NCBI GenBank assembly: GCA_002773845.1
Contig: PEZZ01000035.1
Location: forward strand, 1 to 50,555
Reading direction: 5' to 3'
Length of the DNA stretch: 50,555 nucleotides
Source: Candidatus Buchananbacteria bacterium CG10_big_fil_rev_8_21_14_0_10_42_9
Lineage (GTDB): Bacteria > Patescibacteriota > Patescibacteriia > Buchananbacterales > 21-14-0-10-42-9
The position numbers and the translations under genes were made by a program. The number at the start of each line of letters is the position of its first letter. The first letter of the stretch is position 1. The notes under the pieces are model-generated. The model saw only the letters and a list, made by a program, of their open reading frames with translations. It was not told where the DNA came from and searched no databases. Below are positions 30,046-46,056 of this stretch, in pieces.

Positions 30046-30084
30046 ATATTTAAAATGGTAAAACGAGTAAAAGTTGAATTAATG

Positions 30085-30184
30085 TTCCCTCTCCTAGCGG
30101 GAGAGGGGCAGGGTGAGGTAGGGAATTGGAATATTTTAACCAACCCTCACCTTAATCTTCTCTCTTTCAAATGGGGAGGAGGGA
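30085..30184. repeat. CCTCTCC/GGTGAGG palindromic repeat (copy A)
   Basis: TTCCCTCTCC-TAGC-GGGAGAGGG hairpin, then AGGGTGAGG, which can pair with CCCTCACCT 40 nt later, ending GGGGAGGAGGGA. The end of the element supplies a GGAGGAGGG ribosome-binding sequence just before the next ATG (30192). A short frame from 30055 runs through the element but is not believed to be a gene. Confidence 0.8.
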
Positions 30185-30191
30185 TGGTGGT

Positions 30192-31325
30192 ATGAAAATA
30201 GTGATTGCGGCTGAAATTTATCCGCCGGACATTGGCGGGCCGGCAACTTATAGCCAAAACTTAGCCGGTGAATTAGTAAGCCGCGGGCACTATGTGTCGT
30301 TGATTTGTTACGGCGAAGCAGCATCGGAGGATAAGGTTTCAAAGTTTTCAATTACTAGAATCACCCGTGAGTTACCAAGGCGAAAACGCTATTCTGAATA
30401 TCGTAAGCAGTTGTCTAGCCTGGCAAAAAATTGCGATATGATTTACGCCATGGGCCCGGTGAGTTCCGGCTGGAACGTGTATAAAGTTGCCAAAAAATTA
30501 CATAAGCCTTTTGTCGTAAAAGTGGTTGGTAATTATGCGTGGGAACAGGCGGCGAATATGGGCGTAACTAAAACTTTACCTGATACTTTTGACGATGAAT
30601 GGCGTTTGCCGTTTAGAATTTGGTTTTTGAAATACATTCAAGCTATCGTGTGCCAAAAAGCCAACAAAATTATTACGCCGAGTGAATACTTAAAAGGTTT
30701 GGTTAAAAATTGGGGTGTGGGCGATGACACGATTGAAGTGATTTACAACGCTGTGCCGGCAATGGCGCACACAGAGCGAATTCCGCGCCATCCGATTATT
30801 TTAGCCGTTGGCCGATTAGTGACGTGGAAAGGTTTTGAAACGCTGATTGAAGTAATGCCAGAAATCATTGAGACAGAACCGCAAATGAAATTGGTAATTG
30901 TTGGCGCAGGCCCTTTGGAACGTGTGCTGGAAGAGAAGATAAAAGACATGCATTTAGAAAAATGTGTCCGCCTAACGGGCAAATTAGAAAAAAATCACGT
31001 AGCTACTCATTATCAGCATGCCATGTTATTTGTGCTTAACAGCGGTTATGAAGGCTTGCCGCATACTGTTTTGGAAGCGATGAGTTTTGGTACGCCGGTG
31101 ATCGTATCTAATATCGGTGGCAATCCGGAAGTTATTGAGAATGAAAAAAACGGCTTATTATTTGAGTACAATAATAAAGCGCAACTAAGGGAGGCAATTT
31201 TAAAATTGATTCGCAGCCCAAAGTTAAGCCGCCGGTTGGCGGCCAACGCGCACGAAACATTGCAGCGATTTAAGCCGGAAATAATGTACGATAAAACAAT
31301 TAAAGTTTTGGAGTCTGTCGTATGA
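30192..31325 (+). CDS. GT4 family glycosyltransferase
   Basis: 377-residue GT-B glycosyltransferase. It begins MKIVIAAEIYPPDIGGPATY, a usual N-terminal loop. The donor domain shows LAVGRLVTWKGFETLI and E-x7-E as YEGLPHTVLEAM, then GTPVIVSNIGGNPEVI. The ATG at 30192 is preferred to the in-frame upstream codon at 30171, which lies in the repeat. GGAGGAGGG from the repeat precedes it. Specificity unknown. Confidence 0.93.
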   Translation: MKIVIAAEIYPPDIGGPATYSQNLAGELVSRGHYVSLICYGEAASEDKVSKFSITRITRELPRRKRYSEYRKQLSSLAKNCDMIYAMGPVSSGWNVYKVAKKLHKPFVVKVVGNYAWEQAANMGVTKTLPDTFDDEWRLPFRIWFLKYIQAIVCQKANKIITPSEYLKGLVKNWGVGDDTIEVIYNAVPAMAHTERIPRHPIILAVGRLVTWKGFETLIEVMPEIIETEPQMKLVIVGAGPLERVLEEKIKDMHLEKCVRLTGKLEKNHVATHYQHAMLFVLNSGYEGLPHTVLEAMSFGTPVIVSNIGGNPEVIENEKNGLLFEYNNKAQLREAILKLIRSPKLSRRLAANAHETLQRFKPEIMYDKTIKVLESVV

Positions 31326-31343
31326 GAATAGATTTACTAAAAA

Positions 31344-31605
31344 TTCCTCTCCCCTTGAGGGAGAGGATGAAATCCGTCAGACGGGGTGAAGGTGAGGGGT
31401 TATTGTTTAACTCACACTGCCAAGGGGGACGCAGGGGGTTTATCCCTCCTTTCCTAAAGGAGGTGGCGAGCTTGCGAGCCGGAGGATTTGTTAACACTAG
31501 CAAATCCCTCCCCCCGACGTACCGTCGGGGTACTCCCTTTAAAAAGGGAGAATTAACCTGTCCGACCCTGCCTACCGGCAGGCATGCTCCCCTTAACAAG
31601 GGAGG
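31344..31605. repeat. Composite palindromic repeat block (copy B)
   Basis: The whole 288-nt gap is made of repeats. A CCTCTCCCC-TTGA-GGGAGAGG hairpin leads into GGTGAAGGTGAGGGG. Then follow CAAGGGGGACGCAGGGGGTT, a CCTCC-TTTCCTAAAGGAGG fold, CCCCGACG-TAC-CGTCGGGG, CTCCCTTTAAAAAGGGAG, and CCTTAACAAGGGAGG at the end. Both strands give long false reading frames here. The last GGGAGG is the ribosome binding site of the next gene. Confidence 0.8.
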
Positions 31606-31613
31606 AATATGAT

Positions 31614-32759
31614 ATGAATGTCTTAATGTTATCAATTGACAGGGGATTGCTTGGGAAAGGGCAGCTTGGCGATGTGGTTGAGCGCCACATTGAATATGGC
31701 AAACGGGTGGAAAGGCTCGATATTATTGTCATGTCTAAAAAAGGTTACGACATAAATAAAATTTCTGACAATGTAACAGCGTACCCGACAAATTCAAACG
31801 GCACGATTGGATTTATTTTAGATGCAATAAAAATAGGCAAGAAGTTTAAAGGCATTGATTTAATTGTTTGCCAAGATCCGATTGTTGGACTAGCCGGGTA
31901 TTTTATTAAAAAGAAAACCGGCGCAAAGCTTTTAATTAATCTTCATGGAGATTACGTTGGAAATAAATTATCGAAAGATAGGCGATACAATTCATGGTGG
32001 GGGAGCTTGATTTCAAAATTTGTACTGAACAGAGCCGATGCTATTAGAGTTATGAGCCAAGGCATGATGGATCGATTAATTAAAATGGGATTTGATTCTA
32101 ATAAAATAAAAGTTATATCAACTCCGGTGGACATAGAAAGGTTTATTCGTTATCCCGACGTTAAACAGGAGAATAAAAAGCAAATAGAAAGTCTTGCTAG
32201 CTCTAAAATGCAGAAGGGTAAAAAGCATATATTAATGGTTGGTAGAAAAGATAAGGTTAAAGATTTTGATACATTATGCAGGGCAATAAATCTGGTGCAT
32301 GATAAATATAAAAATGTTGGATTATGGCTGGTAGGTAATTATCATTTTGGTCCGGAAGGTGTAGGGACTCTGCCCCTTAAGCAAGAAATAAAGGACAGCA
32401 TTGTCGTAAGTTTTAATGAAAAATCGAAAGATTTGCCTGCATATTACTACTCGTCCTATTTAACAGTTTTATCCTCGACCTCAGAAAGCTTTGGAAAAGT
32501 CTTAGTAGAAGCTAACGCGTGCGGAAAGCCGGTGGTGGCAACGGAAACGACTGGCGCGAAAGAAATTGTTCAAGACGGTTATAATGGATTTTTAGTACCA
32601 ATTGGCGATGCCGAAGCGTTAGCTGAAAAGATTTTTGAGTTGTTAAATGATCCAAAGAAAGCCAAAAAGATGGGCGAGGACGGTAGGAAGTTGGTTAAGG
32701 AGAAGTTTAGCAATAACACGCAAAAGATTATCACATATTGGAAGGAGATTGTGGCATGA
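31614..32759 (+). CDS. GT4 family glycosyltransferase
   Basis: 381-residue GT-B glycosyltransferase. The N-terminus MNVLMLSIDRGLLGKG is followed by an acceptor domain with LLINLHGDYVGNKL. The donor domain shows MVGRKDKVKDFDTLC and an E-x7-E variant SESFGKVLVEAN, then GKPVVATETTGAKEIV. ATG 31614 lies 8 nt after GGAGG derived from the repeat block. The last 4 bases overlap the GT-C gene (ATGA). Confidence 0.92.
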   Translation: MNVLMLSIDRGLLGKGQLGDVVERHIEYGKRVERLDIIVMSKKGYDINKISDNVTAYPTNSNGTIGFILDAIKIGKKFKGIDLIVCQDPIVGLAGYFIKKKTGAKLLINLHGDYVGNKLSKDRRYNSWWGSLISKFVLNRADAIRVMSQGMMDRLIKMGFDSNKIKVISTPVDIERFIRYPDVKQENKKQIESLASSKMQKGKKHILMVGRKDKVKDFDTLCRAINLVHDKYKNVGLWLVGNYHFGPEGVGTLPLKQEIKDSIVVSFNEKSKDLPAYYYSSYLTVLSSTSESFGKVLVEANACGKPVVATETTGAKEIVQDGYNGFLVPIGDAEALAEKIFELLNDPKKAKKMGEDGRKLVKEKFSNNTQKIITYWKEIVA

Positions 32760-34351
32760 AATTATTATCGCTAAAAAACATTAACTGGAACCCAGAAACG
32801 GTAACTTTACTTTTACTTGGCTTGAGCTTTTTTGTTGGCATTTGGCACGGACTGCCACAGCTGACTATCATTGCGGATGAAAATTATTTTGTCGGTGGGG
32901 TGTTACGCGCGATGGAGAATAAAACAATTTTGCCGGCGCCCGACGATGTGCCATACGGCACGTTGACCTATTTTTTTAGTTATGTGGCAATTGCGTTTTA
33001 TTTGGTCATATTGTCACCATTTTTTGGGTTTAACTTAGATGCTTTGAAATCCTTTTTAATCCAATCGCCGGAATTTGTGTATATAATCCCGCGGGCGTTA
33101 AGCGCCATATTTGCAATGGGCTATTTATACTTTATTTATAAGTTGTTAAAGCGTGAAGTTGATGATCGGGGCGTGCGCACGGTATTTTTAATTTTGCTAT
33201 TTACCAACATGCTGACTGTTTTGATTTTGCATACGGGCAAGATGTGGGTTTTAAGCACACTTTTGGCTGTGATGTCGTTTTATTATTTGTACCAAACGAT
33301 TATGGCAAATGATGAAATCTCGGCCAAGCGGCACTCTTTAAAAAGTATTGTTTTAGGATTTTTGGCGGCCGCTAATTTCCCACTCAATGCAATTTTTTTA
33401 ATTAATATTCCAGTACTTTTGATTTGGTTTAGAAAAAATAAAAAGTTGTTGGGTAAATTGGTTTTATTCAGTTTAATTGGTTTAATAATTTACGCAGGGA
33501 TTACAGCGCTTAATTTTACGAGTGTCAAAAACCAAGTCATAAGTATTTTTACTAACTACAACCCGGTGCTAGATACTAATACGGCCCCTGAAGCTAGCGT
33601 ACTGCAATCATTTGGCGCACAGCTTACAAAGATCTTTGCTTTTTTCCCATTGTTATTGGCGATGCTGCCATTTGGCATTGCGCGCAGAGTAAAAAACAAA
33701 AAACTTTTGGTTATTTCACTTGTTTATTTTCTGACTTATTTTATAAGTATCAGCGTCGTTGCTAACTGGGCGACTGATTTATACTCATACACACGCTACT
33801 CATTCCCCTTAGTATTTTTTATATTTTTTATAATTTTAAGTTTTAATTATTCGTTTAGCAGATGGTTTTACGGAGTTGCCGCAATTTCAGTACTCTATTT
33901 TGTGTTTACGATTTATTATTTAGCCGCGCCAACAACTTATAACTTAGCTGAAATATACGTGGCCCAAAATCTAAACAAAGAAAACGCAGTCGTTGTTAAC
34001 GAAATTTGGACCTTACAACTGCCAAAAAACAAAGCGTCTTACGAGCTTAACCAAGAATATTTTTGCGCCAGTAAATGCCAAAACGTTATTGCCAATGATT
34101 TATATTCAGATATTAAGCCGTTAATTATTGATAAACATACCCAAGAGACTTTTGAGTTGCCGAAAGATAAAACAATTTATTATCTCAAAAATGAGCTCCA
34201 AGATGAGAAAAATTACAAATTGCTAGCGAGCTTTTCTAACGATGTCGGATTACATTTTGGCGTTGAGGGCCGGATGGCAAATTATTTTGATTGGGATTTA
34301 TTCCTGGCTAAGCATTTTGGGTCTAATATATACATTTATGAACAGTTATAA
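32756..34351 (+). CDS. GT-C membrane glycosyltransferase-like protein
   Basis: 531 residues with about 10 membrane helices over the first 400 and a soluble outer C-terminal domain of about 130 residues. The first outer loop has LTIIADENYFVGGVLRAM, whose acidic residues (Asp, Glu) sit where PMT/ArnT-type GT-C enzymes keep their catalytic Asp. Such enzymes use polyprenyl-phosphate sugars as donors, so the polyprenol-phosphate-mannose synthase-like gene at 49249 is a likely partner (inference). Start ATG 32756 overlaps the upstream stop as ATGA, with GAAGGAG before it. Confidence 0.78.
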   Translation: MKLLSLKNINWNPETVTLLLLGLSFFVGIWHGLPQLTIIADENYFVGGVLRAMENKTILPAPDDVPYGTLTYFFSYVAIAFYLVILSPFFGFNLDALKSFLIQSPEFVYIIPRALSAIFAMGYLYFIYKLLKREVDDRGVRTVFLILLFTNMLTVLILHTGKMWVLSTLLAVMSFYYLYQTIMANDEISAKRHSLKSIVLGFLAAANFPLNAIFLINIPVLLIWFRKNKKLLGKLVLFSLIGLIIYAGITALNFTSVKNQVISIFTNYNPVLDTNTAPEASVLQSFGAQLTKIFAFFPLLLAMLPFGIARRVKNKKLLVISLVYFLTYFISISVVANWATDLYSYTRYSFPLVFFIFFIILSFNYSFSRWFYGVAAISVLYFVFTIYYLAAPTTYNLAEIYVAQNLNKENAVVVNEIWTLQLPKNKASYELNQEYFCASKCQNVIANDLYSDIKPLIIDKHTQETFELPKDKTIYYLKNELQDEKNYKLLASFSNDVGLHFGVEGRMANYFDWDLFLAKHFGSNIYIYEQL

Positions 34352-34357
34352 AAATAA

Positions 34358-34445
34358 TTCCTCTCCCTTGATGGGAGAGGATAAAGATGAGGGTGAAAAT
34401 TTTTCTTTTTCTACCTCACCCAGCCCTCTCCTGCCAGGAGGGTGG
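34358..34445. repeat. CCTCTCC/GGTGAGG palindromic repeat (copy C)
   Basis: TTCCTCTCCC-TTGA-TGGGAGAGGA hairpin, GATGAGGGTGA pairing with CTCACCC, then CCCTCTCCTG-CCAGGAGGG. The last arm gives a CAGGAGGGTGG ribosome-binding-like sequence upstream of the next gene. Confidence 0.8.
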
Positions 34446-34459
34446 TTAAATGTTATCTT

Positions 34460-35509
34460 ATGAAGTTATTAATGGTTACTAGAAAAGTTGACAAAGGCGA
34501 TGCGTTGGCGGGGTTTAGTTATACGTGGGTTAAAAAAATCGCTCAGCATGTGAACGACCTAAAGGTAATTTGTTTAGAAAAGGGCAATACCGAGGGGTTG
34601 CCAGATAATGTTAAAATTTATTCTTTGGGCAAAGAAGGTAACAACTCACGTTTTGCCAGGTTTAAATTATGGAATAAATATTGTTTGAAGCATGTGTCAG
34701 AAGTTGACGGAATTTTTTGCCATCAAAATCCAGAATATACAATCGCCATGTGGCCATATGCGTTATTGCGGCGTAAGAAAATTATTTCTTGGTACACTCA
34801 TCGCGCGGTCACTTGGAAAACTAAGCTTATGGCTATGATGGCTGCTAAAGTGTTGACCGCTTCGGTTGATAGCTTTCGCATCAACACCGCCAAAAAGTTA
34901 GTTGTGGGCCATGGCATTGATTTAGACCGTTTTAAAACCTCAGACACTAAGCACGTTGACGAACGCTTTAATATTGTGACCGTTGGACGCATCTCGCCGA
35001 CTAAAGATTATGAAACGATGATCTTGGCGGTTAAGAAGTTAGTCCAGGAAAACGATTCCAATATTCATCTTTCTATTATAGGCGGGGTACCAATAGAGTC
35101 GCAACGAAGTTATTACGACGCTTTATTAAAAATTGTTGCCAACCACAATTTAAGAGATAATATTTCATTTAAGGGCTGGGTTCCAAACGAGAAAATTGTC
35201 GATGAATTGAAAAAATCTGATTTATTTATCAATTTATCAGGCACAGGCAGTTTAGATAAAGCCATTTTAGAAGCCATGGCCGCCCGTTGCCTGGTTTTGA
35301 CATCCAACGAAGCATTTAAGGATTTTTTACCAGTCACGTTAATGGTTGAAGCTAATAATCCTGAGGCGTTAGCCAGAAAGATATCAGAGCTTATGAGATT
35401 ACCAACCATAGAATTAGAAAATATATTAGACAGTATGTTCCAGGTGGTTTCAAGCCAACATAATTTAGATAACTTGGTAAAAAAGATTATTCAACAATTT
35501 GGGACATGA
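34460..35509 (+). CDS. GT4-like glycosyltransferase with altered E-x7-E motif
   Basis: 349-residue GT-B glycosyltransferase. It has IVTVGRISPTKDYETMI in the donor domain and NLSGTGSLDKAILEAM where the E-x7-E motif should be. The second Glu is kept but the first is replaced by Gly/Ser, so activity or donor choice may differ from its neighbours. ATG 34460 (MKLLMVTRKV) is preferred over the frame start at 34442. It overlaps the next gene by 4 bp (ATGA). Confidence 0.88.
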   Translation: MKLLMVTRKVDKGDALAGFSYTWVKKIAQHVNDLKVICLEKGNTEGLPDNVKIYSLGKEGNNSRFARFKLWNKYCLKHVSEVDGIFCHQNPEYTIAMWPYALLRRKKIISWYTHRAVTWKTKLMAMMAAKVLTASVDSFRINTAKKLVVGHGIDLDRFKTSDTKHVDERFNIVTVGRISPTKDYETMILAVKKLVQENDSNIHLSIIGGVPIESQRSYYDALLKIVANHNLRDNISFKGWVPNEKIVDELKKSDLFINLSGTGSLDKAILEAMAARCLVLTSNEAFKDFLPVTLMVEANNPEALARKISELMRLPTIELENILDSMFQVVSSQHNLDNLVKKIIQQFGT

Positions 35510-36780
35510 CAATTTGTGTTGTGGCATATAAATTTGGCACGGAAAAAGAGATTGGCGAGCATCTTGGTTCGTATCATTATTTTATTCAAAAGATGAGAGT
35601 CTTGGTAGAAAAAGGCCATAAAGTTTTCGTGGTCGCTCCTTGGTTATCATTTACAAAAAAAGGAAGTGAAAATATTGATGGAGTTAAAGTTATTCGATAC
35701 TACCCACCAATGTTAAACAAAGCCAAGGTATTTCCTGTTAATAGGATTATTCGATGGGTATATATAAAACAAACCCAAAGACAAGTTTTAAAATTAGACC
35801 AACAAGAAAATTTAGATGTAGTCTATGTTTGGCAGGCCAGAGAAACCGGATACGCCATATCTAAAATTAAGTCAAAACTCAAAGCCCCGTTTATATTTCG
35901 TCAAATTACTGCTTGGCACTGGCATTTTAATCGCCCAATTCAAGAAATTTTAGCGCATGATACGCTATTCAAGATAATGGCAAAATTGTCCCGGTCTTTG
36001 GCTAATCAATTTGGATTATTTTTGCTAGACCGCAAAACGCATAAGAAATATGCCGATGTAATTTACGAAAAGGCTGATAAAATTGTTTTCTTAAGCCAAG
36101 CCGCAATTGAAGAAGGCAAAAAGTTAGGACTTGATGAATCTAAAGCCGAAATTATTGGAGTCGCGATTGAAGAGGATGAATTTAAGCCCATGCATGACAA
36201 AAGGTCGTTGAGGCAAAAGCTAGGCCTAGACGATAAATTAACGATTTTATTCGTTGGGCGTGTTAACTTCGCTGAAAAAGGCGTAGGTATTTTGCTTGAA
36301 GCATCGACTCAGGCTAGGAAAAAAATAAATGATTTTCAACTAATTTTAATCGGCGGCGGAGAGGACGACAAGATGAAATCAGAGATTGATAAGCTTAGTA
36401 TTATGGAGATAGCCAAGCCTATAGGTAAAAAATCTTTTAGTGAATTAGTAGAATACATAAATGCGGCTGATGCGGTGGTGGTGCCTTCAATTTGGATGGA
36501 AGCTTTTGGTATGATAACGATTGAAGCGATGAGTTGCGGGGTGCCTGTCATTACGTCTGATGCCGGAGCGAGTCCCGAAATTAACATTAACGATGAAACC
36601 GGATTTGTAGTGCCAAAAAATAATGCCGAAGCATTGAGCCAAGCCATTGTTAAAATGTTAAAAGATAAACCAATGAGAGAAAAATTTGGCAAACAGGCGC
36701 GCGAACGAGTATTACAAAATTATACTTACGAAGTTTTAGTTAATAAATTTTTAAATATAGTACAACATACTAGACAGTAA
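35506..36780 (+). CDS. GT4 family glycosyltransferase
   Basis: 424-residue GT-B glycosyltransferase, the longest in the cluster. N-terminal acceptor domain with an extended helical insert (about 120-190, rich in aromatic and basic residues). The donor domain shows LFVGRVNFAEKGVGILLEA and E-x7-E as MEAFGMITIEAM, then GVPVITSDAGASPEIN. ATGA overlap with the upstream gene. A mobile-element-like insert follows 8 nt later. Confidence 0.93.
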   Translation: MTICVVAYKFGTEKEIGEHLGSYHYFIQKMRVLVEKGHKVFVVAPWLSFTKKGSENIDGVKVIRYYPPMLNKAKVFPVNRIIRWVYIKQTQRQVLKLDQQENLDVVYVWQARETGYAISKIKSKLKAPFIFRQITAWHWHFNRPIQEILAHDTLFKIMAKLSRSLANQFGLFLLDRKTHKKYADVIYEKADKIVFLSQAAIEEGKKLGLDESKAEIIGVAIEEDEFKPMHDKRSLRQKLGLDDKLTILFVGRVNFAEKGVGILLEASTQARKKINDFQLILIGGGEDDKMKSEIDKLSIMEIAKPIGKKSFSELVEYINAADAVVVPSIWMEAFGMITIEAMSCGVPVITSDAGASPEININDETGFVVPKNNAEALSQAIVKMLKDKPMREKFGKQARERVLQNYTYEVLVNKFLNIVQHTRQ

Positions 36781-36788
36781 ATAAAATT

Positions 36789-37140
36789 GTCATCGCGAGG
36801 AGCGCTAGCGACGTGGCGATCTCTCGTTATGAAAAAATATTACATATATCTATTAACAAATAAAGTGCATACAGTTCTGTATACTGGAGTTACCAGCAAT
36901 CTAGCAAATAGGGTGTGTCAACATAAAGAAAAAGTCGTTGAAGGCTTTACTAAGAGATATAATGTCGATAAATTGGTTTATTATGAGGAGTATGATAATG
37001 TTCAAGATGCTTTAAGTAGAGAAAAGCAGATAAAAAATTATAGCAGAAAAAGAAAAGAAATTCTTATTAATAGCGTAAATAATCGATGGGAGGATTTAAG
37101 CTATCGATTGTAGAGATTGCGACGCTTCGCTCGCAATGAC
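36789..37140 (+). mobile_element. GIY-YIG element with GTCAT/ATGAC inverted ends
   Basis: A 352-bp unit. The left end is GTCATCGCGAGGAGCGCTAG and the right end is CGACGCTTCGCTCGCAATGAC, which are imperfect inverted repeats of each other. It encloses one gene, a GIY-YIG nuclease, and sits between two glycan genes. The ends match the gene-less element at 646-751. I infer an autonomous palindromic element whose nuclease may act on copies of the repeat, by analogy with REP elements and their RAYT enzymes. Mobility is not shown by this window. Confidence 0.6.
36829..37113 (+). CDS. GIY-YIG nuclease domain protein (YhbQ/UvrC-like)
   Basis: 94 residues, a single GIY-YIG domain. The two motif halves are YYIYLLTN and LYTGVTSNLANRVCQHK, so the second triplet reads YTG instead of YIG. 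The catalytic Arg (in ANRVCQHK) and a downstream Glu (LVYYEEY) are present, followed by SREKQIKNYSRKRKEILI, typical of the small stand-alone group. ATG 36829; the upstream in-frame part lies in the left repeat. It interrupts a run of glycosyl genes and is flanked by inverted repeats. Confidence 0.9.
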   Translation: MKKYYIYLLTNKVHTVLYTGVTSNLANRVCQHKEKVVEGFTKRYNVDKLVYYEEYDNVQDALSREKQIKNYSRKRKEILINSVNNRWEDLSYRL

Positions 37141-37146
37141 AGTAAC

Positions 37147-38115
37147 ATGATAAAAAAAGTTTTAATTACCGGTGTTAACGGTTTTGTTGGCACTCATTTG
37201 GTCAAGTATCTAGCCCAAGAGCATCCTGGAGTGGAAATTTTTGGTCTGGTTTTAAAAGATGTTAACGATGTCATAAAAAAATTGAGTGTTAATATTTTGC
37301 AATGCAATATTTTAGACAAAGACAGATTAAAAACTATTATTAGTGAAATTAGACCGGATGCTATTTTTCATCTGGCGGCTCAAAGTTATGTCAGTACATC
37401 TTGGGAAAATCCGGAAAAAACTCTGGAGACTAATATTATTGGGCAATCTAATTTACTGGAAGCTATTCGGGCAATTAAAGATGATGCCTTTGGTCCAGTT
37501 GTTCTGATTGCCGGTTCTTGCGAAGAGTACGGCACAATCGCCGAAGATGAAAATCCAGTGAGTGAAAATAACCCTCTCAGGCCGCTTTCGCCTTACGCGA
37601 TATCCAAAGTTGCTCAGGATTTTATGGGCTATCAATATTATACAAATTACGGATTAAAAATAATACGCATCCGGGCTTTCCAGCATACCGGACCCGGCCG
37701 CCCACCAGTGTTTGGCATTTCAAATTTTGCTAAGCAAGTAGCCGAAATTGAGGCAGGTAAAAAAGAACCAGAAATAAGAGTACGTGATGACAGCGCGGTG
37801 CGAGATTTTAGCGATGTGCGTGACGTGGTGAGAGCATATTGGCTAGCGGTCAATCAATGCCAGCCGGGCCATGTCTATAACGTTTGTTCGGGCAAAGGCA
37901 CTTCTATCAAAGATATTTTAGAAAAATTGATTTCAATTTCTAAAGTTAAAGATATAAAAATCGTTAGAGATGAAAAAGACAGACGCCCGACAGACGGCGG
38001 AGTGATGATAGGGGATAATGGTAAGTTTATTGCAGCAACGCGCTGGAGACCGGAAATTGATTTTTTAGACGAGACAGTACCTTCTATTTTAGATTATTGG
38101 CGCAAGCAAATGTAA
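37147..38115 (+). CDS. rmd: GDP-6-deoxy-D-mannose reductase (RMD-like SDR)
   Basis: A 322-residue extended SDR that reduces GDP-4-keto-6-deoxy-D-mannose to GDP-D-rhamnose. It has the NAD(P) motif TGVNGFVGTHL, HLAAQSYVSTSWENP, catalytic Ser in AGSCEEYG, and Tyr/Lys in SPYAISKVAQDFMGYQYY. It also has FQHTGPGRPPVFGISNFAKQ and VRDFSDVRDVVRAYW, a combination strongly typical of RMD. The substrate would come from the GMD encoded at 47317. ATG 37147 is chosen; the 10 codons upstream (RRFARND) are the right end of the GIY-YIG element read in frame. Confidence 0.88.
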   Translation: MIKKVLITGVNGFVGTHLVKYLAQEHPGVEIFGLVLKDVNDVIKKLSVNILQCNILDKDRLKTIISEIRPDAIFHLAAQSYVSTSWENPEKTLETNIIGQSNLLEAIRAIKDDAFGPVVLIAGSCEEYGTIAEDENPVSENNPLRPLSPYAISKVAQDFMGYQYYTNYGLKIIRIRAFQHTGPGRPPVFGISNFAKQVAEIEAGKKEPEIRVRDDSAVRDFSDVRDVVRAYWLAVNQCQPGHVYNVCSGKGTSIKDILEKLISISKVKDIKIVRDEKDRRPTDGGVMIGDNGKFIAATRWRPEIDFLDETVPSILDYWRKQM

Positions 38116-38116
38116 T

Positions 38117-39160
38117 ATGACAGTTTGTTACTTTGGCATTTTTGATCCTGATTATCCGCGCAATAGAATTTTATTAGACGGCTTAAAACAAAACGGCGTG
38201 GAAATAATAATGTGTAATTCACGGGCAAAAGGTTTTAAAAAGTATTCGGAATTAATTAATCGGCATAAAGAAATAAAGGATCAGTACGATGTTATGGTGG
38301 TTGGGTATATGGGGCATTTAATTATGCCGTTAGCCAAAGTGTTATCCCGTAAGCCCATTATTTTTGATGCTTTTTTATCGCTTTATAATACAATGGTTTA
38401 TGATCGCCAAGTATGCAGTCCAAAATCGCCAAAAGCATGGTATTATTATGTATTAGATTGGTTGGCATGCCGATTGGCAGATCATGTTGTAATTGATACG
38501 CAAGCGCATATTGATTATTTTGTTAAAACGTTTAAGGCTAAGCCGAAAAGGTTTTCCCGAATATGGATTGGGGCGCACGATAAATTTTATTATTCTGGCA
38601 AAAAGTCATCCGGTAGGTTTAAGGTTTTATGGTGGGGCTGGATGACGCCGCTACACGGGATAGAAACAATGCTCGGAGCAGCCAAAAAGCTTCAGGATAA
38701 AGGTGTGCAATTTGTATTTGTGGGCGGCGGCAAGAAAATGAAAGATGGGAAAAAGTTGCAGCAGGTGCAAAATATTTCTAATGTTGAATGGCATGAGCCA
38801 GCCCAAGGCGATGAATTATTAAAATATATTCATGATGCTGATGTTTGCTTGGGGTTATTTGGCAAGTCATCTAAAGTGCAATTAGTTATACCGAATAAAA
38901 TTTACGAGGCATTTGCCTGCCAAAAGTCGGTGGTGACGGCGCGAAGCCTGGCGGCAGATGAAATTTTAAAAGATGGTGTGCATTGCTTATTTTGCGAGGT
39001 TGATGATGGGACAGATTTGGCAGATAAAATAATGATGTTAAAAAACGATAAGCAGTTATTGGAAAAAATAGCGCAAAATGGTAAAGAATTATATGAACAA
39101 GAATTTAATCCCAACGCATTAGGTAACCAGTTTAAACATATTATAGAAAATTATGTCTAA
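38117..39160 (+). CDS. GT4-like glycosyltransferase
   Basis: 347-residue GT-B type glycosyltransferase. It begins CYFGIFDPDYPRNRILLDGL. The donor side has VLWWGWMTPLHGIETML, then VQLVIPNKIYEAFACQKSVV. This P-x-K-x-x-E-A pattern replaces the usual E-x7-E, as in a subgroup also represented at 40600. One base separates it from the RMD gene, and it overlaps the zinc-ribbon gene by 8 bp. Candidate rhamnosyltransferase by position only. Confidence 0.85.
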   Translation: MTVCYFGIFDPDYPRNRILLDGLKQNGVEIIMCNSRAKGFKKYSELINRHKEIKDQYDVMVVGYMGHLIMPLAKVLSRKPIIFDAFLSLYNTMVYDRQVCSPKSPKAWYYYVLDWLACRLADHVVIDTQAHIDYFVKTFKAKPKRFSRIWIGAHDKFYYSGKKSSGRFKVLWWGWMTPLHGIETMLGAAKKLQDKGVQFVFVGGGKKMKDGKKLQQVQNISNVEWHEPAQGDELLKYIHDADVCLGLFGKSSKVQLVIPNKIYEAFACQKSVVTARSLAADEILKDGVHCLFCEVDDGTDLADKIMMLKNDKQLLEKIAQNGKELYEQEFNPNALGNQFKHIIENYV

Positions 39161-39359
39161 TTGTAATGAGCATCAGTGGGAGCCCTGGGATAGTGACAAG
39201 GGCATTATCTATTGCCGTAAGTGTAATGCCAGGACTACTCAGTATGAACTTTCATATAGGACTGGGCAAGATCGCAAAACTAATATAATAATTGTTATTG
39301 GTTTAGCGACTTTATTAGTAGCTACCTTATCTATAGTTATCCAATTATTTTATGAGTAA
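39153..39359 (+). CDS. Small zinc-ribbon-like membrane protein
   Basis: 68 residues. The N-terminal half has Cys4-x2-His7 and, later, YCRKCNA (Cys-x2-Cys), a possible zinc knuckle. The C-terminal half is one membrane helix (about 45-64) ending in FYE. No family recognised. It overlaps the upstream glycosyltransferase by 8 bp, so it is probably translated with it. The cytoplasmic zinc knuckle plus membrane helix could tether or regulate a glycosyltransferase (inference). Confidence 0.65.
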   Translation: MSNCNEHQWEPWDSDKGIIYCRKCNARTTQYELSYRTGQDRKTNIIIVIGLATLLVATLSIVIQLFYE

Positions 39360-39393
39360 TATATCGAGTATATGCGAGGCGCATGAATCAACG

Positions 39394-39506
39394 TTCCCTC
39401 TCCCTTGGGGAGAGGGGCAGGGTGAGGTAGGGAAATCCCTCTGTCAAGGGGGATATAGGGGGTTAACAAAACCCCTCCACTCTTCCCTTAACAGGGGAGG
39501 ATTACC
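39394..39506. repeat. CCTCTCC/GGTGAGG palindromic repeat (copy D)
   Basis: TTCCCTCTCCC-TTGG-GGAGAGGGGCAGGGTGAGG, nearly identical to copy A. It runs into CCCTCTGTCAAGGGGGATATAGGGGGTT, shared with copy B, and ends CCCTTAACAGGGGAGG, also shared with copy B. The false frame 39352-39552 is its translation. The gap from 39360 to 39548 holds nothing else. Confidence 0.8.
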
Positions 39507-39548
39507 CAATTCCGGGAAAGGGTCTATAGAAATAACTCTTAAATTAAT

Positions 39549-40544
39549 ATGAGCAAAATAATTGTCACCGGTGGAGCGGGGTTTATCGGGTCACATGTTG
39601 TGGACGCATTAATTGAGCGTGGTCACGAAGTTGTGGCTTTGGATGATTTAAGCGGTGGGTTTAAAGAGAATGTGAATCCTAAAGCCGAATTTGTTGAGGG
39701 CAGCGTTAATGATGAGGAATTAATCAATAGATTATTTAATGAGCACAAGTTTGAATACGTTTTTCATTTAGCGGCTTACGCGGCCGAAGGCTTGAGTCAT
39801 TTTATTCGTAAGTTCAATTACAATAACAATGTGTTGGGCAGTATTAATTTGATAAACGCTTCGGTGAATCACAATGTCAAATGTTTTGTGTTTACTTCCT
39901 CAATCGCAGTGTACGGCGCCGGGCAATCGCCGATGACCGAGGATATGAAGCCAGAACCAGAAGACCCGTACGGCATTGCCAAATATGCCGTGGAATTAGA
40001 TTTGCAAAACGCGAAGCGGATGTTTGATTTAAATCATGTGATTTTTCGGCCCCATAATGTGTATGGTGAAAGGCAAAATATTGGTGATAGATATCGTAAT
40101 GTGATCGGAATTTTTATGAACCAAGCCATGCGAGGAGAACCGTTTACAATTTTTGGAGACGGTGAACAACAGCGGGCGTTTAGCTATATTGGCGACGTAG
40201 CACCCGTAATTGCCGATGCGGCATTTAATGAAAAAGCGTATAACCAAATTTTTAATGTCGGCGCTGATGAGCCATTTACTGTAAATCATCTGGCTAATTT
40301 AGTATCCAAAGAGTTTGGCATTAATGCGCCGAACATCACTTACTTGCCGGAACGCAATGAAGTGAAGGTTGCTTTTTCCGACCATTCAAAAATGAATAAT
40401 GTGCTAAGGTTTAAAGCGCAGACTAGTTTTGAAGAGGGGATTAAAAGAATGGCGTCATGGGCAAAAGAAGTTGGCGCCAAACAGAGTAAGAGGTTTGACA
40501 ACATTGAGATACTTAAAAATTTACCGCCATTGTGGAAAGAATGA
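39549..40544 (+). CDS. NAD-dependent sugar epimerase/dehydratase (GalE-like SDR)
   Basis: A 331-residue extended SDR acting on a nucleotide sugar. It shows TGGAGFIGSHVVDALIERGH, HLAAYAAEGL, catalytic Ser in TSSIAVYG and Tyr/Lys in YGIAK. It then has RPHNVYGERQNIGDRYRNVI and FGDGEQQRAFSYIGDVAP, which point to the GalE/WbpP-like epimerase group. The C-terminal extension with LKNLPPLWKE is unusual for GalE. Exact substrate unknown. Start ATG 39549 follows the repeat by about 40 nt. Confidence 0.88.
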   Translation: MSKIIVTGGAGFIGSHVVDALIERGHEVVALDDLSGGFKENVNPKAEFVEGSVNDEELINRLFNEHKFEYVFHLAAYAAEGLSHFIRKFNYNNNVLGSINLINASVNHNVKCFVFTSSIAVYGAGQSPMTEDMKPEPEDPYGIAKYAVELDLQNAKRMFDLNHVIFRPHNVYGERQNIGDRYRNVIGIFMNQAMRGEPFTIFGDGEQQRAFSYIGDVAPVIADAAFNEKAYNQIFNVGADEPFTVNHLANLVSKEFGINAPNITYLPERNEVKVAFSDHSKMNNVLRFKAQTSFEEGIKRMASWAKEVGAKQSKRFDNIEILKNLPPLWKE

Positions 40545-40550
40545 AATAAT

Positions 40551-40588
40551 CACCCTCACCTTATTCCTCTCCCATCAAGGGAGAGGAA
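40551..40588. repeat. CCTCTCC/GGTGAGG palindromic repeat, half copy (E)
   Basis: CACCCTCACC followed by TTCCTCTCCC-ATCA-AGGGAGAGGAA; inverted relative to copies A and C. It supplies GGGAGAGG 12 nt before the next start (ATG 40600). Confidence 0.75.
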
Positions 40589-40599
40589 ATACTACTTTC

Positions 40600-41757
40600 A
40601 TGAATTTATTATATATTGCCAATATCAGAATCCCGACCGAAAAGGCGCACGGCTATCAAATTTTTAAAATGTGCGAAGCTTTTGCTAATGCCGGCTTGTC
40701 GGTAAAACTTATTACGCCAACCAGGCGCAACCCCAACTTTAAAAGTATTGGCCCATTTGAGCATTACCATAGCCAAAAGAATTTTACTTTAATGCAATTA
40801 AAAACTTTTGATCCGCATTGGTTAATAAAGTTACCCAACGGAATTTATATTAAATTTCAGATTTTTTTCTTCCTTTTAATGCTGGTGCCATTTTTACTAA
40901 AGCATCCAAAAACTAATACTGTGGTTTATACTCGGGACGCGTACTTGTTACCGATTTTACAAAAGTTTTTCAAGAAGGTAGTGTGGGAAGGGCATTCGCT
41001 GCCCGGGCGCAAGGACCTGTATTTAAAGTATTATAAACTTTGTCATCACATAATTGTAGTGACCGGGGAGTTAAAGCGTCAATTAGTAAAAATGGGTGTG
41101 GGCGAAGATAAAATCCTAGTAGCCCACGATGGAGTTGATTTAGCAACATTTGCTGTAGACATTAGTCAAGCACAAGCACGACAAGAACTTAAATTACCAG
41201 CCGATAAAATTATTTTAGGATACACCGGCAGTTATCGAACTAAAAATATGGACAAAGGCATTGCCGATATTTTAAAGGCGCTGAAAATTTTAATCCCCAA
41301 TATTCCTAATATACAGTTTGTGGCTGTGGGTGGTGATATTAGAGATATTAGTTTTTATCAAGATGTGGTAAGCCAAATACAAGTTGGCAACCACGTCACT
41401 TTATTACCGCGCGTGGGCCAAGATAAGCTCGCTCAATACCAGCAGGCTTTTGATATTTTAATGATGCCGTTTCCGGACACAACGCATTTTCGTCACTATA
41501 TGTCGCCGATGAAAATGTTTGAGTATATGGCGGCTAAGCGGCCGATTGTAGCGACGACCTTGCCGAGTACGCTTGAAGTTTTAAACGATTCAAACGCGCT
41601 TTTAGTCTCACCGGATAATTCAGAAGAGTTAGCCGAAGGTTTACAAAAACTGATTAAAGATAAACAATTACGAAATAAGCTCGCCCAAAAAGCTTTTGAG
41701 GATGTGCAAGAATATACTTGGGCCAAACGGGCAGCTAGCATTAAAGCAGTTTTATGA
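40600..41757 (+). CDS. GT4-like glycosyltransferase
   Basis: 385-residue GT-B type glycosyltransferase. It begins MNLLYIANIRIPTEKAHGYQ and contains a hydrophobic segment at about 85-105 that may associate with the membrane. The donor side shows LGYTGSYRTKNMDKGI, and FRHYMSPMKMFEYMAAKRPI in place of the E-x7-E motif (same P-x-K-x-x-E subgroup as 38117). ATG 40600 is chosen; the frame upstream to 40429 overlaps the epimerase gene and a repeat. It overlaps the CotH gene by 4 bp (ATGA). Confidence 0.88.
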   Translation: MNLLYIANIRIPTEKAHGYQIFKMCEAFANAGLSVKLITPTRRNPNFKSIGPFEHYHSQKNFTLMQLKTFDPHWLIKLPNGIYIKFQIFFFLLMLVPFLLKHPKTNTVVYTRDAYLLPILQKFFKKVVWEGHSLPGRKDLYLKYYKLCHHIIVVTGELKRQLVKMGVGEDKILVAHDGVDLATFAVDISQAQARQELKLPADKIILGYTGSYRTKNMDKGIADILKALKILIPNIPNIQFVAVGGDIRDISFYQDVVSQIQVGNHVTLLPRVGQDKLAQYQQAFDILMMPFPDTTHFRHYMSPMKMFEYMAAKRPIVATTLPSTLEVLNDSNALLVSPDNSEELAEGLQKLIKDKQLRNKLAQKAFEDVQEYTWAKRAASIKAVL

Positions 41758-44612
41758 ATTTAAAGAGGTTATTCAATCGAATAGTTCGGCGTAAAAATAG
41801 CGGTGTTAAGATTGCGATTGGCATAGTTGTGGTTTTTGTTGGTATTGGCCTAGTTGCCATTCCGATGTTTAAATCATTAACCAGTCCAAGTTATCGCGCC
41901 AAGCTACTGCGGGAGAATCCAGCCCTGGTGCGCCTATTGCCTTTGTATTGGAAGTTACGTAAAGTTTCTGATTTGACTTATTTCGCGTATGCTTTTAAAA
42001 AAGATGAAATTCCAACCTATGATCTTGAAATAAAACCAGAAGATATCCTAACGCTAAATGATAGTTTGCCGGAAGGTTTTGGTAACGTGATTTACACCGA
42101 TCCGGTTTGGGTGCCTGCAAAATTTAGTTACGGCGGCGAGGAGTATGATGTTGACGTAAGGTATAGGGGCGCTAACGCAATTCATTGGAACGCACCAAAG
42201 AAATCGTATTTAGTAAAATTTGATAAAGACAAACTATTTAATGGCATTAGGCGTTTAAGCTTTATCATTGTGGATGACCGTTACTTTGCGATGGAGCAAT
42301 TGAATAATTATCGCGCCGATAAGCTTGGTTTATTGCACCCGCCAAGCAGCTTTGCCAATTTGCATGTTAACGGCCGTAACCATGGCGCCTATTTTGTGAT
42401 AGAAAATTGGAGCCAAGAGATGCTAGCAAAGTGGGAAGTGCCAGACGAAACCAATTTTTATGGAGAGGAAAATTTAGGGGAAGATGGCATAACTCGTTCC
42501 GATACTTTGTGGGATAATTTAGACCGCTGGGAAAAATTGGTTGACGACAGCCAATTCAATTATGATCATTATTCTGAACTTTATACTTTGCTTGATTTGT
42601 TGCATAATGCTTCGGATGAGCAATTTAACCGGCAAATTTTTACATTAGTTGACCAAGAAAATTTTTACAACTGGCAAGTGCATCAAGAATTAATTAATTC
42701 TGCCCATCAAGTCTTTGGCAATGTGCGATTGCTATTTAACAATACGTCCGGCAAATTTTATTTTGTGCCTTGGGATGTGGAGAGTGATTATGCGTATCGC
42801 AATAATGTTGGCTTGTACGGGACTTTAGCTCGCCGTATTTTTAGTAACCCAAAATTTTTACATAAAAAGAATAAACTTTTGTACACCTATGCCAGCGATA
42901 AGGATAACTTGGAAGACGACCTAAATTATTACGACGAAACATACGATAAAATTAAAACCTCGGTTTATAAAGACAGGCTGAAAGTTTACACTAACCGTTT
43001 TGCCGATAGCGTTTACCAAGACCATCGTGAAAAGATAATTAACAATTTTAATCGAGCCAGCGATATTTTTGATGATTTCATAATATTTGTAGATGTCAAT
43101 GTAACGGATGATAATAGCCAAACATTTTTGGGCCAAAGCGTTTTAGCTTATTTTGATGCCCACGTGCAAAGCTTGGCTGATTTTTTTGTGCGGGAAGTTG
43201 ATGTTGAATTTGTTGATGAGGAAGTATTTAGCGATTTCAAACTTTATTATGACTACAATAATAACGGCGAACTTGATAATAGCGACACATTAATTAGTGA
43301 GCCAAGTGATGCTCTTTTATCTACCAAACGTGTATCACCTAATAATAATCAACAATACACAACAGAACTAACACGCCACCGAATTTTTATCGTTAGTCAA
43401 AATATTACAAGCGAACAATTTTCTAGCCGCTTAGCTGATGTCTCATTTAATTTTGTTAATGCGATAACAGACAGAAAAGTTAAAAAAGGAGACGTCAGGG
43501 TGAAAATTATAAATGGCCAAGCTTTGGCAAGGCTTGCAGCTATTACTGACGTTGAGGGCTTTAAGTCTAGCTATCCCCAATTTTTGATTAATGAAAGTAG
43601 TAAAGAAATAATCTTACCGGCTGGAAGCTATTTTTTTACTAACACTGTAATTGTGCCGCAAGGTTACACCTTGCGGTTACTACCCGGGACGGTCATACGA
43701 TTGTCGGGGGGTACATCAATAATCAGTTACAGCAACGTGATTGCTGAAGGCACACCTGTAGCGCCAATTCAAATTATTGGCTTGACAACTGAACCTTGGG
43801 GAGTTTTTGGTGTGTTAAATAGTGATTTAGAGAGCCGATTTCGATATTTTATTGTTGACAATGGCAAGGACGCTTATGTGAATGGCGTGTATATGTCTGG
43901 TATGCTGTCAATTTATCATAACGATGTTGTAATTGAACGCCTTACCGCCTCCCGGGCAAACGCCGATGATGCGCTAAACGTTAAATCAGCTAAAGCTAAA
44001 TTGTCCAATAGCACTTTCACAGTTAATAGCGCCGATGCGGTTGACTTTGATTTTATAAAAGAGGGTGAGATCTCAAACAATTTGTTTGTTAATAACGGAA
44101 ATGATGGCATTGATTTGAGCGGCTCAACGGTTTTGATTAATCAAAATACAATTCACGGCTCTGGTGATAAATGTATTAGCGTGGGAGAGAGATCAGTTGA
44201 TACGGTAATTTACAACAATGTATTAAATGAGTGCTTGATTGGCATAGAAATTAAAGACGCGTCTGATGTACAAATTATAAACAATGTGATTGTCAATAAT
44301 GATATTGGACTGAACGCTTATGTTAAAAAGCCGGTTTTTGGCGGTGGGGTGGGCCGCGTTTATAACAGCATTATTTGGGATAATCAAATTGATGTTCAAG
44401 TTGACGAACAATCTGAAATTAATGTTAATTTTAGCGATATAAAAGATTATGAAGGGGAGGGGAATATAAACATATATCCGGTTTTAAGCCAAGACTTTAC
44501 AATTAGCCCAGCAACCGATACTATATTGTTTGTAAATAGTGGGAATAAACAGGTGCTGAAGGATTGGTTAGGCATAGATTGGGCAGAGGCACCGATTGGT
44601 TTAAATTTATAA
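41754..44612 (+). CDS. CotH-kinase-like protein fused to parallel beta-helix
   Basis: 952 residues. It has an N-terminal membrane helix (about 19-38), then a CotH kinase-like domain (about 90-480). VDVRYRGANAIHWNAPKKSY (134-152) matches the CotH nucleotide-binding region, and VPWDVESD (338-345) matches the catalytic DxxxD segment. An EF-hand-like DYNNNGELDNSD lies near 502-513. The C-terminal 350 residues form a right-handed beta-helix of the NosD/PbH1 type (repeats such as INNVIVNNDIGL). CotH proteins are atypical kinases that phosphorylate spore-coat or secreted proteins. Topology puts kinase and helix outside the cell. It leads the block with the VTC and DUF4956 genes (gaps of 1 and 3 nt). 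Confidence 0.88.
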   Translation: MNLKRLFNRIVRRKNSGVKIAIGIVVVFVGIGLVAIPMFKSLTSPSYRAKLLRENPALVRLLPLYWKLRKVSDLTYFAYAFKKDEIPTYDLEIKPEDILTLNDSLPEGFGNVIYTDPVWVPAKFSYGGEEYDVDVRYRGANAIHWNAPKKSYLVKFDKDKLFNGIRRLSFIIVDDRYFAMEQLNNYRADKLGLLHPPSSFANLHVNGRNHGAYFVIENWSQEMLAKWEVPDETNFYGEENLGEDGITRSDTLWDNLDRWEKLVDDSQFNYDHYSELYTLLDLLHNASDEQFNRQIFTLVDQENFYNWQVHQELINSAHQVFGNVRLLFNNTSGKFYFVPWDVESDYAYRNNVGLYGTLARRIFSNPKFLHKKNKLLYTYASDKDNLEDDLNYYDETYDKIKTSVYKDRLKVYTNRFADSVYQDHREKIINNFNRASDIFDDFIIFVDVNVTDDNSQTFLGQSVLAYFDAHVQSLADFFVREVDVEFVDEEVFSDFKLYYDYNNNGELDNSDTLISEPSDALLSTKRVSPNNNQQYTTELTRHRIFIVSQNITSEQFSSRLADVSFNFVNAITDRKVKKGDVRVKIINGQALARLAAITDVEGFKSSYPQFLINESSKEIILPAGSYFFTNTVIVPQGYTLRLLPGTVIRLSGGTSIISYSNVIAEGTPVAPIQIIGLTTEPWGVFGVLNSDLESRFRYFIVDNGKDAYVNGVYMSGMLSIYHNDVVIERLTASRANADDALNVKSAKAKLSNSTFTVNSADAVDFDFIKEGEISNNLFVNNGNDGIDLSGSTVLINQNTIHGSGDKCISVGERSVDTVIYNNVLNECLIGIEIKDASDVQIINNVIVNNDIGLNAYVKKPVFGGGVGRVYNSIIWDNQIDVQVDEQSEINVNFSDIKDYEGEGNINIYPVLSQDFTISPATDTILFVNSGNKQVLKDWLGIDWAEAPIGLNL

Positions 44613-44613
44613 T

Positions 44614-45366
44614 ATGGAAAAAGCTAAATTACATTTTCAAAGATACGAATTCAAGTATTATTTACCCAAAGCCAAGGCTGACAAGTTGATCCCAACGCTT
44701 TTAAAATACATGGCGTGGGATCCTTATATTCAAGCAACTGACCAGGATTTCTATCAAGTTAATAGCTTGTATTTTGATAGCCCTGATTACGGTTGTTTTT
44801 GGGATAAGGAAAGCGGTATTGTGGATAGGAAAAAATTGCGCTTTCGCTACTACAATAATTTAACTTTAGGCGTTACTCCTATTTTTGCCGAGATAAAAAG
44901 AAAAAATGATGCCCTGGCAATTAAAGACAGAATTAAGCTGACAGCCGACCAAGCCGCTAGGGAGAATTTTGATAATTCATTAAGGCAACTGCTTCGTCAA
45001 GATCCAGAGGATATGTTTTTAAGTGAATTACTTTGGTTCAAGCAACGTAATTCAATGCAACCAAAATTGTTTATAAGCTATGACCGCAAAGCTTTAATTA
45101 GCAAGCGGGATCAAAGATTCAGAGTCACTTTTGATTACAACATTAAAGCCAGACGTCAGCACGATTTAAACGATGTACATGGACGACTGGTTGAAGTTTA
45201 TCCTGAAGGAACTGTGCTGGAATTAAAATATAATAATATCTTGCCTGTTTGGTTTCACAAAATTATTCAAAAATATCAATTGCAACGCCTAGCTTACTCA
45301 AAATATTGTAATGCGCTTAGGCACAATATGCCGCGATTTGATGATAATAATTATAAAGTAACATAA
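44614..45366 (+). CDS. VTC domain protein (polyphosphate polymerase-like)
   Basis: A 250-residue soluble triphosphate-tunnel protein of the VTC family. The eukaryotic homologue Vtc4 makes polyphosphate from ATP. Tunnel residues are present: RYEFKYY (Arg10, Glu12, Lys14), LRFRYY (Arg76, Arg78), FAEIKRK (Glu93, Lys95), ISYDRKA (Arg158), LELKYN (Glu203, Lys205) and SKY (Lys230). The basic and acidic pairs expected for ATP and Mn2+ binding are all kept, so it is probably active. No membrane helix is present; the DUF4956 protein just downstream would be its membrane partner (inference). Confidence 0.9.
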   Translation: MEKAKLHFQRYEFKYYLPKAKADKLIPTLLKYMAWDPYIQATDQDFYQVNSLYFDSPDYGCFWDKESGIVDRKKLRFRYYNNLTLGVTPIFAEIKRKNDALAIKDRIKLTADQAARENFDNSLRQLLRQDPEDMFLSELLWFKQRNSMQPKLFISYDRKALISKRDQRFRVTFDYNIKARRQHDLNDVHGRLVEVYPEGTVLELKYNNILPVWFHKIIQKYQLQRLAYSKYCNALRHNMPRFDDNNYKVT

Positions 45367-45369
45367 CAT

Positions 45370-46056
45370 ATGCCTACTGATTTTTTTACCAGCGGATTAA
45401 CGCTCGAACCAGCTAATTTAACAATTGCGGTATTTAATATTATTTTAGCTTTTATATTATCTTATATTATTGCGTTGACGTATCGGAATACGCATCGAGG
45501 CTTGTCTTATTCGCAAGGGTTTACTTTTACTTTAATTTTAATTGGCGTTTTGATCGCGGTAATTATGATGGTAATTGGCAATAGTGTGGCGCGCGCTTTT
45601 GGGGCATTTGGCGCATTTTCGTTAATTAGATTTAGAACGGCGATTAAAGATAGCAAAGACATTGCTTTTATTTTGTTGGTCGTAGCAATTGGACTTGCCA
45701 CGGGCACGAATAATTACGGCATCGCGATAGTAACAACTATTTTCGCAGTAATTATTATTTATGCATTAACTAAGATGAATTTTGGTTCAATTCGTAAATA
45801 TGATTATGTTTTAAATTTCACAGCCCACTCCGATAGATTTTCTAACGATAAAATGCGTGACATTTTTAATAAATATTTGAAATATGATAATTTGCTTAAT
45901 GTGTCAGCTAAAGAAAGCGGGCGGAGGTTAGAGTACAGTTTTAATGTCAAATTTATCAAGGTGGCCGACATTGATGTTTTTACAAAGTCTTTAAGTGAAC
46001 TTGATGGAATATCAGATGTCGATTTAATCAGTGCCAAAAACGATATTGAGTATTAA
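45370..46056 (+). CDS. DUF4956 membrane protein
   Basis: 228 residues. It has four to five membrane helices in the first 140 and a cytoplasmic C-terminal domain of about 85 residues resembling a ferredoxin-like/ACT fold. The conserved core ARAFGAFGAFSLIRFRT is the hallmark of DUF4956 and recalls MgtC-type membrane proteins. It follows the VTC gene by 3 nt and ends in TAATG with the aminotransferase-like gene. DUF4956 genes often accompany VTC and CotH genes in bacteria. Its function is unknown; a channel or docking site for the polymer is a guess. Confidence 0.9.
   Translation: MPTDFFTSGLTLEPANLTIAVFNIILAFILSYIIALTYRNTHRGLSYSQGFTFTLILIGVLIAVIMMVIGNSVARAFGAFGAFSLIRFRTAIKDSKDIAFILLVVAIGLATGTNNYGIAIVTTIFAVIIIYALTKMNFGSIRKYDYVLNFTAHSDRFSNDKMRDIFNKYLKYDNLLNVSAKESGRRLEYSFNVKFIKVADIDVFTKSLSELDGISDVDLISAKNDIEY

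Follow-up and report, generated by a model that had tools for sequence, protein, structure and literature searches.

The window, that is, the whole stretch of 50,555 nucleotides that was analysed, carries from 26.8 to 50 kb a series of glycosyltransferase and NDP-sugar enzyme genes. Genes of the CotH, VTC and DUF4956 families lie within this series, and the relevant features are the following:

26773..41757, plus strand, surface-glycan biosynthesis run: NDP-sugar epimerases/dehydratases, a UDP-sugar dehydrogenase and several GT4 glycosyltransferases
40429..41757, plus strand, GT4 glycosyltransferase directly upstream of CotH, with a 4-nt overlap (ATGA)
41754..44612, plus strand, CotH-fold and beta-helix protein of 952 aa, intact open reading frame with Pfam matches
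44614..45366, plus strand, VTC (triphosphate tunnel) protein of 250 aa with a Vtc4-type polyphosphate polymerase domain
45370..46056, plus strand, DUF4956 membrane protein of 228 aa
46056..47255, plus strand, DegT/DnrJ/EryC1 aminotransferase (sugar biosynthesis) directly downstream of DUF4956, with a 1-nt overlap

According to the open reading frame coordinates, 1 nt separates CotH from VTC and 3 nt separate VTC from DUF4956, all on the plus strand, which bears out the compact three-gene block of the original prediction. The true start of the GT4 gene is probably downstream of 40429, since its reading frame overlaps that of an epimerase (39549-40544). The Pfam scan of the window covered the reading frames between 26.8 and 50 kb and gave matches above the curated cut-offs for CotH (6.9e-14), Beta_helix (4.9e-11), VTC (7.2e-42) and DUF4956 (2.5e-14). 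Frameshift or misassembly as the origin of the gene block was ruled out, as the frames are intact and the gene order is repeated in many genomes. A 537-aa reading frame of the glycan operon (window positions 32738-34351) had no Pfam match. Additionally, a GIY-YIG gene (36832-37113) is bracketed by two repeat arms, TGTCATCGCGAGGAGCG and CGCTTCGCTCGCAATGACA, which together make an imperfect palindrome (window positions 36790-37145), as if a small mobile element lay inside the glycan operon; the pairing was judged by eye and the repeat finder did not flag it.

The association of VTC, DUF4956 and CotH is real and very strong. Among 287 CPR genomes VTC is present in 19, DUF4956 in 20 and CotH in 19, and all three occur together in 16, far above the approximately 1.3 joint carriers expected by chance for each family pair (hypergeometric 2e-25 to 1e-20, kinship ignored). 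The carriers are spread over many families and therefore the association is not that of one clone. A second, independent survey, in which named genomes were scanned with a DUF4956 alignment, yielded 80 loci that span CPR, Bacteroidota, Ignavibacteria, KSB1, Zixibacteria, Planctomycetota, Spirochaetes and many Firmicutes. We found that VTC adjoins DUF4956 on the same strand, at no more than 368 nt and with a median gap of 15 nt, in 76 of the 80 loci, which rules out chance adjacency of the three genes; in the remaining four, DUF4956 is near a contig end. CotH lies within 6 kb of DUF4956 in 58/80 loci and within 1.5 kb in 50/80, and 22/80 have VTC-DUF4956 with no CotH nearby, several of them on short contigs. 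Annotated plasmids also carry the gene set, under the names "CotH kinase family", "polyphosphate polymerase domain-containing" and "DUF4956". The placement in a glycan operon, which had been predicted to be unusual, is the usual setting of these genes, both in the loci examined and in published ones (PMC7112168). The triad is a real, widespread and under-studied envelope module, of which the window carries a CPR form whose CotH is altered.

Variation in gene content was also found. Genome G006, which belongs to the order of the window genome, encodes a GT4 glycosyltransferase whose C-terminus is a VTC domain (positions 385-612; L047:8181-10034, minus strand), which suggests a direct link between VTC and glycans; no DUF4956 was detected within this 17-kb locus. 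As some VTC-DUF4956 loci lack CotH and this one lacks DUF4956, the parts are not strictly obligate. VTC-DUF4956 without CotH is also found at L048:6217-11722 (minus strand), in a nonulosonic-acid-type locus with NeuB, UDP-GlcNAc 2-epimerase and a cytidylyltransferase.

The CotH domain of the window protein extends over residues 80-445 approximately, with His318 in the catalytic loop, N323, and the metal Asp341 within a PWD motif. A single N-terminal transmembrane segment (residues 15-44) places the domain outside, in agreement with the outward-facing CotH and beta-helix protein that had been described. A hydrophobic segment precedes the domain in 77 of 78 complete CotHs, the exception being an over-long reading frame call, so CotH would work outside the cell. 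The structural model follows the Bacillus cereus CotH kinase over the whole kinase length (TM 0.79-0.81; Foldseek 5jda, E 8.7e-16, TMt 0.79). Three alignments agree in placing the catalytic D228 of Bacillus subtilis CotH at His318, a change that the original prediction missed. The metal-binding Asp (B. subtilis D251) corresponds to Asp341; Asp341 and Asn323 are retained in most of the His clade. A single branch (SH-aLRT 96) divides the tree of 84 CotHs into 59 with Asp and 25 with His, Gln or Glu, and further CPR CotHs beyond the tree comprise nine with His and five with Asp. Non-redundant proteins fused to a beta-helix (n=23) have His in 20 cases and Gln, Glu and Asp in one each, and the unfused ones (n=71) have Asp in 62 and His in nine. 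The CPR beta-helix-fused CotHs form one clade, in which the catalytic position is His except for one Gln and one Glu. Because of this replacement, the claim that CotH phosphorylates secreted proteins is not transferable to the clade, and the label of protein kinase for the window CotH is not supported. No tested function for a His-type CotH was found in the literature.

The right-handed beta-helix (residues 600-890 approximately) is fused C-terminal to the CotH domain. We found approximately 13 charged positions invariant in 13/13 proteins (D739, D761, D764, D766, D784, D787, D805, K806, E812, K834, D835, K858 and K859), with a spacing of about one coil (D739, D761, D784, D805/K806, K834/D835, K858/K859). 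Foldseek neighbours of the model are GH87, AlgE4, AlgG, PL6 and NosD, at E 1e-5 to 1e-3 and TM to target of only 0.25-0.5 approximately, and the domain appears to be of a sugar-active or sugar-binding type. The fusion is not unique to the source genome, nor unusual as predicted, being instead the common form in CPR. A possible explanation of the altered active site is that the CPR CotH domain serves as a pseudokinase scaffold and the work is done by the beta-helix, in glycan binding or as a lyase or epimerase. The loss of the catalytic Asp would fit, as B. subtilis CotH D228Q is inactive (PMC7821199), and so would the invariant charged positions and the likeness to AlgE4, AlgG, PL6 and GH87. 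However, apart from the two exceptions mentioned, His is fixed and not drifting, which argues against simple decay, and Asp341 and N323 are mostly retained as if the site still works. We find this explanation somewhat doubtful; it is limited to the CotH step and can hold alongside polyphosphate export.

Other CotH architectures were observed. Those at L054:7393-9741 and L086:1666-5871 have lamin-tail and T9SS (Por secretion) sorting domains, and the T9SS tails likewise speak for a CotH outside the cell. A dockerin is also present at L054; L086 has a beta-helix yet keeps the catalytic Asp and is apparently an independent fusion. Outside CPR, a single His-type CotH-beta-helix was seen (L072:1588-4158, a Planctomycetota MAG); it has a very long branch and reflects either transfer or a misbinned contig. 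Tandem CotH pairs with the beta-helix on one copy only occur at L032:8464-13040, at L034:3418-7821 and in genome G219, which encodes four CotHs of both Asp and His types.

The window VTC matches PF09359 with 144 bits (cut-off 23) over profile positions 1-231 of 235. It contains no transmembrane segment and, compared with yeast Vtc4, retains K14, R76, R78, E93, K95, K104, R158, R170, D174, E203, K205, S229 and K230, so the predicted cytoplasmic protein with its ATP and metal residues kept is upheld. A hydrophobic segment of the type tested in CotH was present in only 4/93 VTCs. Mutation of R264, R266 or E426 impairs yeast Vtc4 (PMC9911596). The equivalents of these residues, together with the other tunnel Lys, Arg and Glu, are invariant in 100 bacterial VTCs including that of the window, in an alignment where the Vtc4 reference, taken partly from an E426N mutant PDB entry, shows N at 426. 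A single-sequence search of PDB returned nothing useful; the profile of CPR VTCs did succeed, and retrieved Vtc4 at 2.4e-24 and, more weakly, the non-catalytic Vtc2 and Vtc3 (7.7e-16 and 1e-11), without a match to any further TTM family at E<0.1. Since neither PPK1 nor PPK2 was found in the source genome (95.95% complete), VTC is its only evident polyphosphate synthase. Synthesis of polyphosphate from ATP by VTC is well supported by homology; a measured activity for any bacterial VTC or DUF4956 was not found in the accessible literature.

More than one activity is known among TTM enzymes, which have most catalytic residues in common. VTC could be another triphosphate-tunnel enzyme, one that for example uses ATP to phosphorylate a lipid-linked sugar, and the module would then decorate a glycan with phosphate. 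The location in glycan loci and the GT4-VTC fusion in a relative of the same order are in line with such a role, as are the many activities described for TTM folds (PMC8233210). We regard it as unlikely, since catalytic Vtc4 is the best match in the profile search and all its residues are invariant.

DUF4956 was predicted to be polytopic, and its AlphaFold model (pLDDT 88) indeed has five transmembrane helices followed by a beta-alpha-beta-beta-alpha-beta C-terminal domain. Profile comparison with MgtC by hhalign gave a probability of 96% over 121 columns, the whole transmembrane domain, in contrast to 0.2-0.4% for two controls; the MgtC profile independently finds DUF4956 genes, at 24.1 bits and thus below the Pfam cut-off of 31.4. 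Judged by these profiles, DUF4956 is a distant relative of MgtC and not a member of the MgtC family. Single-sequence and profile searches of PDB with DUF4956 gave nothing useful. Its Foldseek neighbours in PDB, none of them below E 0.001, are ACT/ferredoxin-like and match the C-terminal domain only, the C-terminal domain of MgtC (2lqj) among them, and the transmembrane fold has no solved counterpart. In 63 sequences G81, A82, R87, F88, R89, K93, D97, G108 and G112 are invariant, and the basic loop RFRxxxKxxxD (R87, R89, K93) is specific to the family. On the assumption, made also for MgtC, that the C-terminal domain lies in the cytoplasm, RFRxxxK and the loop between helices 1 and 2 would both point to that side, the one on which VTC would be located. 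To our knowledge, no member of the MgtC family is known as a polymer channel. Yeast VTC makes polyphosphate and moves it across the membrane as coupled steps, by way of a channel with basic residues along its walls (PMC9911596). The basic loops of DUF4956 toward VTC may parallel the basic path from Vtc4 into that channel, and we propose DUF4956 as the translocation partner of VTC.

Twenty loci, belonging to Bacteroidota, Ignavibacteria, KSB1 and relatives, have a protein of approximately 355 aa encoded directly before VTC, with a gap of mostly 0-13 nt. Its profile matches MacA, EmrA and AcrA in PDB (best 2.8e-10), and 7 of 18 such proteins match HlyD_3 or HlyD_D23 in Pfam, where four searched singly gave no match. 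By these similarities it is a HlyD-type membrane-fusion adaptor, and an adaptor before VTC makes sense if the product of the module leaves the cell. In this sense, we may reasonably infer that the module exports polyphosphate.

The best reading, which we hold tentatively, is that VTC and DUF4956 would be a pair that makes and exports polyphosphate in the service of an extracellular protein for phosphate transfer or glycan binding; the module probably makes polyphosphate inside the cell and sends it through the membrane for use at the surface. Gene linkage, residue conservation, topology, folds and the Asp-to-His clade are directly established, and the three genes are the form that an envelope module widespread among bacteria takes in CPR. 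VTC, on strong grounds of homology, would polymerise the gamma-phosphate of ATP into polyphosphate at the cytoplasmic face. The MgtC-like, five-helix DUF4956 may hold VTC at the membrane through its basic cytoplasmic loops and pass the growing chain outward, like the transmembrane subunits of the yeast VTC complex, and in many Gram-negative loci the HlyD-type adaptor would carry it onward. The substrate of the anchored CotH-fold protein outside would be the exported chain or else a phosphate-accepting glycan or protein; in the CPR variant, the sugar-active-type beta-helix may direct the His-type CotH to the glycan made by the surrounding operon. From the joint membrane system that had been suggested, the module and its topology stand, with a polymer enzyme inside and CotH outside, but not protein phosphorylation by CotH. 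Against the best reading stand the several activities of TTM enzymes, the likeness of DUF4956 to a family not known as a polymer channel, and the loci that lack CotH or DUF4956; the change in the CotH active site could also mean a dead kinase.

MgtC relatives are regulators of ATP and phosphate physiology, and DUF4956 ends in an ACT-like domain, typically regulatory. Both features would suit a polyphosphate that stays in the cytoplasm, or a VTC that only senses ATP, with DUF4956 as an MgtC-like regulator or anchor tuning polyphosphate to envelope or phosphate status and CotH linked solely through co-regulation with surface assembly. However, the adaptor whose gene immediately precedes VTC in 20 loci indicates passage across the envelope, and CotH is extracytoplasmic in essentially all loci and frequently within 1.5 kb of DUF4956, so this arrangement seems improbable to us. 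Returning to synthesis and export, a more specific proposal, for which we see a rather low probability, is that VTC and the MgtC-like DUF4956, with the HlyD-type adaptor in Gram-negatives, would form a dedicated polyphosphate exporter and so bring phosphate to the outside of the cell, where ATP is lacking, and that the CotH there would use polyphosphate and not ATP as phosphoryl donor on a surface glycan or protein. In CPR this would proceed via the catalytic-loop His, possibly with a phospho-histidine intermediate, and the beta-helix would choose the target. The gene set, which ranges from CPR to Bacteroidota and Firmicutes, offers a concrete and testable answer to two questions, how bacteria place polyphosphate on the surface and what donates phosphate to an extracytoplasmic kinase, and the Asp-to-His clade is a clear natural experiment on whether a CotH fold stays functional when another residue takes the catalytic position.

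Until now, the triad has been published as a gene grouping, in line with the neighbourhood mentioned in the original prediction, and the literature gave no tested function for it, also as predicted. Gram-positive pelDEADAFG clusters have CotH-PPP-DUF4956(-DUF4832) as accessory genes (Whitfield et al. 2020, PMC7112168); in streptococci, clostridia and bifidobacteria the same three families form an unbroken block next to genes for exopolysaccharides. The window CotH differs by its beta-helix fusion, the His for catalytic Asp and its CPR host, and neither the Pel families nor DUF4832 were found among the reading frames scanned between 26.8 and 50 kb. Clostridium perfringens NELoc-2, with VTC, "tubulin" and CotH genes (PMC2879425), resembles the window in having VTC, a membrane protein at the DUF4956 position, CotH and an adjoining glycosyltransferase, but has two VTC copies, a HEAT-repeat protein and a separate CotH without beta-helix fusion. 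With the yeast VTC complex (Vtc1/Vtc3/Vtc4; PDB 3G3Q, 7YTJ, 8I6V) the module shares all Vtc4 catalytic residues and a polymerase beside a membrane partner; in contrast, the window VTC has no SPX, and the transmembrane part is the separate MgtC-like DUF4956, in which no similarity to the Vtc transmembrane domain was detected. The Bacillus CotH spore-coat kinase (PDB 5JD9/5JDA) shares the fold, metal Asp and Asn, but has neither the His nor the outside membrane anchor and beta-helix fusion. MgtC/SapB has a homologous transmembrane domain and, like DUF4956, an ACT-like C-terminal domain; DUF4956 is distinguished by scoring under the Pfam cut-off, its own RFRxxxKxxxD loop and its tie to VTC. What is new here is a VTC with every Vtc4 catalytic residue kept, DUF4956 as a distant five-helix MgtC relative with an ACT-like domain, the HlyD-type adaptor directly before VTC in 20 Gram-negative loci, the N-terminal membrane segment in nearly all CotHs, and the Asp-to-His beta-helix CPR clade.

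A surface beta-helix is a recurring partner of the module, either fused or as a separate Cthe_2159 protein (PF14262), a carbohydrate-binding beta-helix whose gene adjoins VTC-DUF4956 in some CPR and Paenibacillus. Unlike the domain fused to the window CotH, it belongs to another Pfam family and is encoded separately. Three CPR genomes without an adjacent CotH (L035 among them) have Cthe_2159 next to DUF4956, and only those three of the 287 carry it over the cut-off. It does not always follow DUF4956 when CotH is absent, as L133 has a phospholipase-D-type protein at this position, and the DUF4956-Cthe_2159 link holds in some lineages only.
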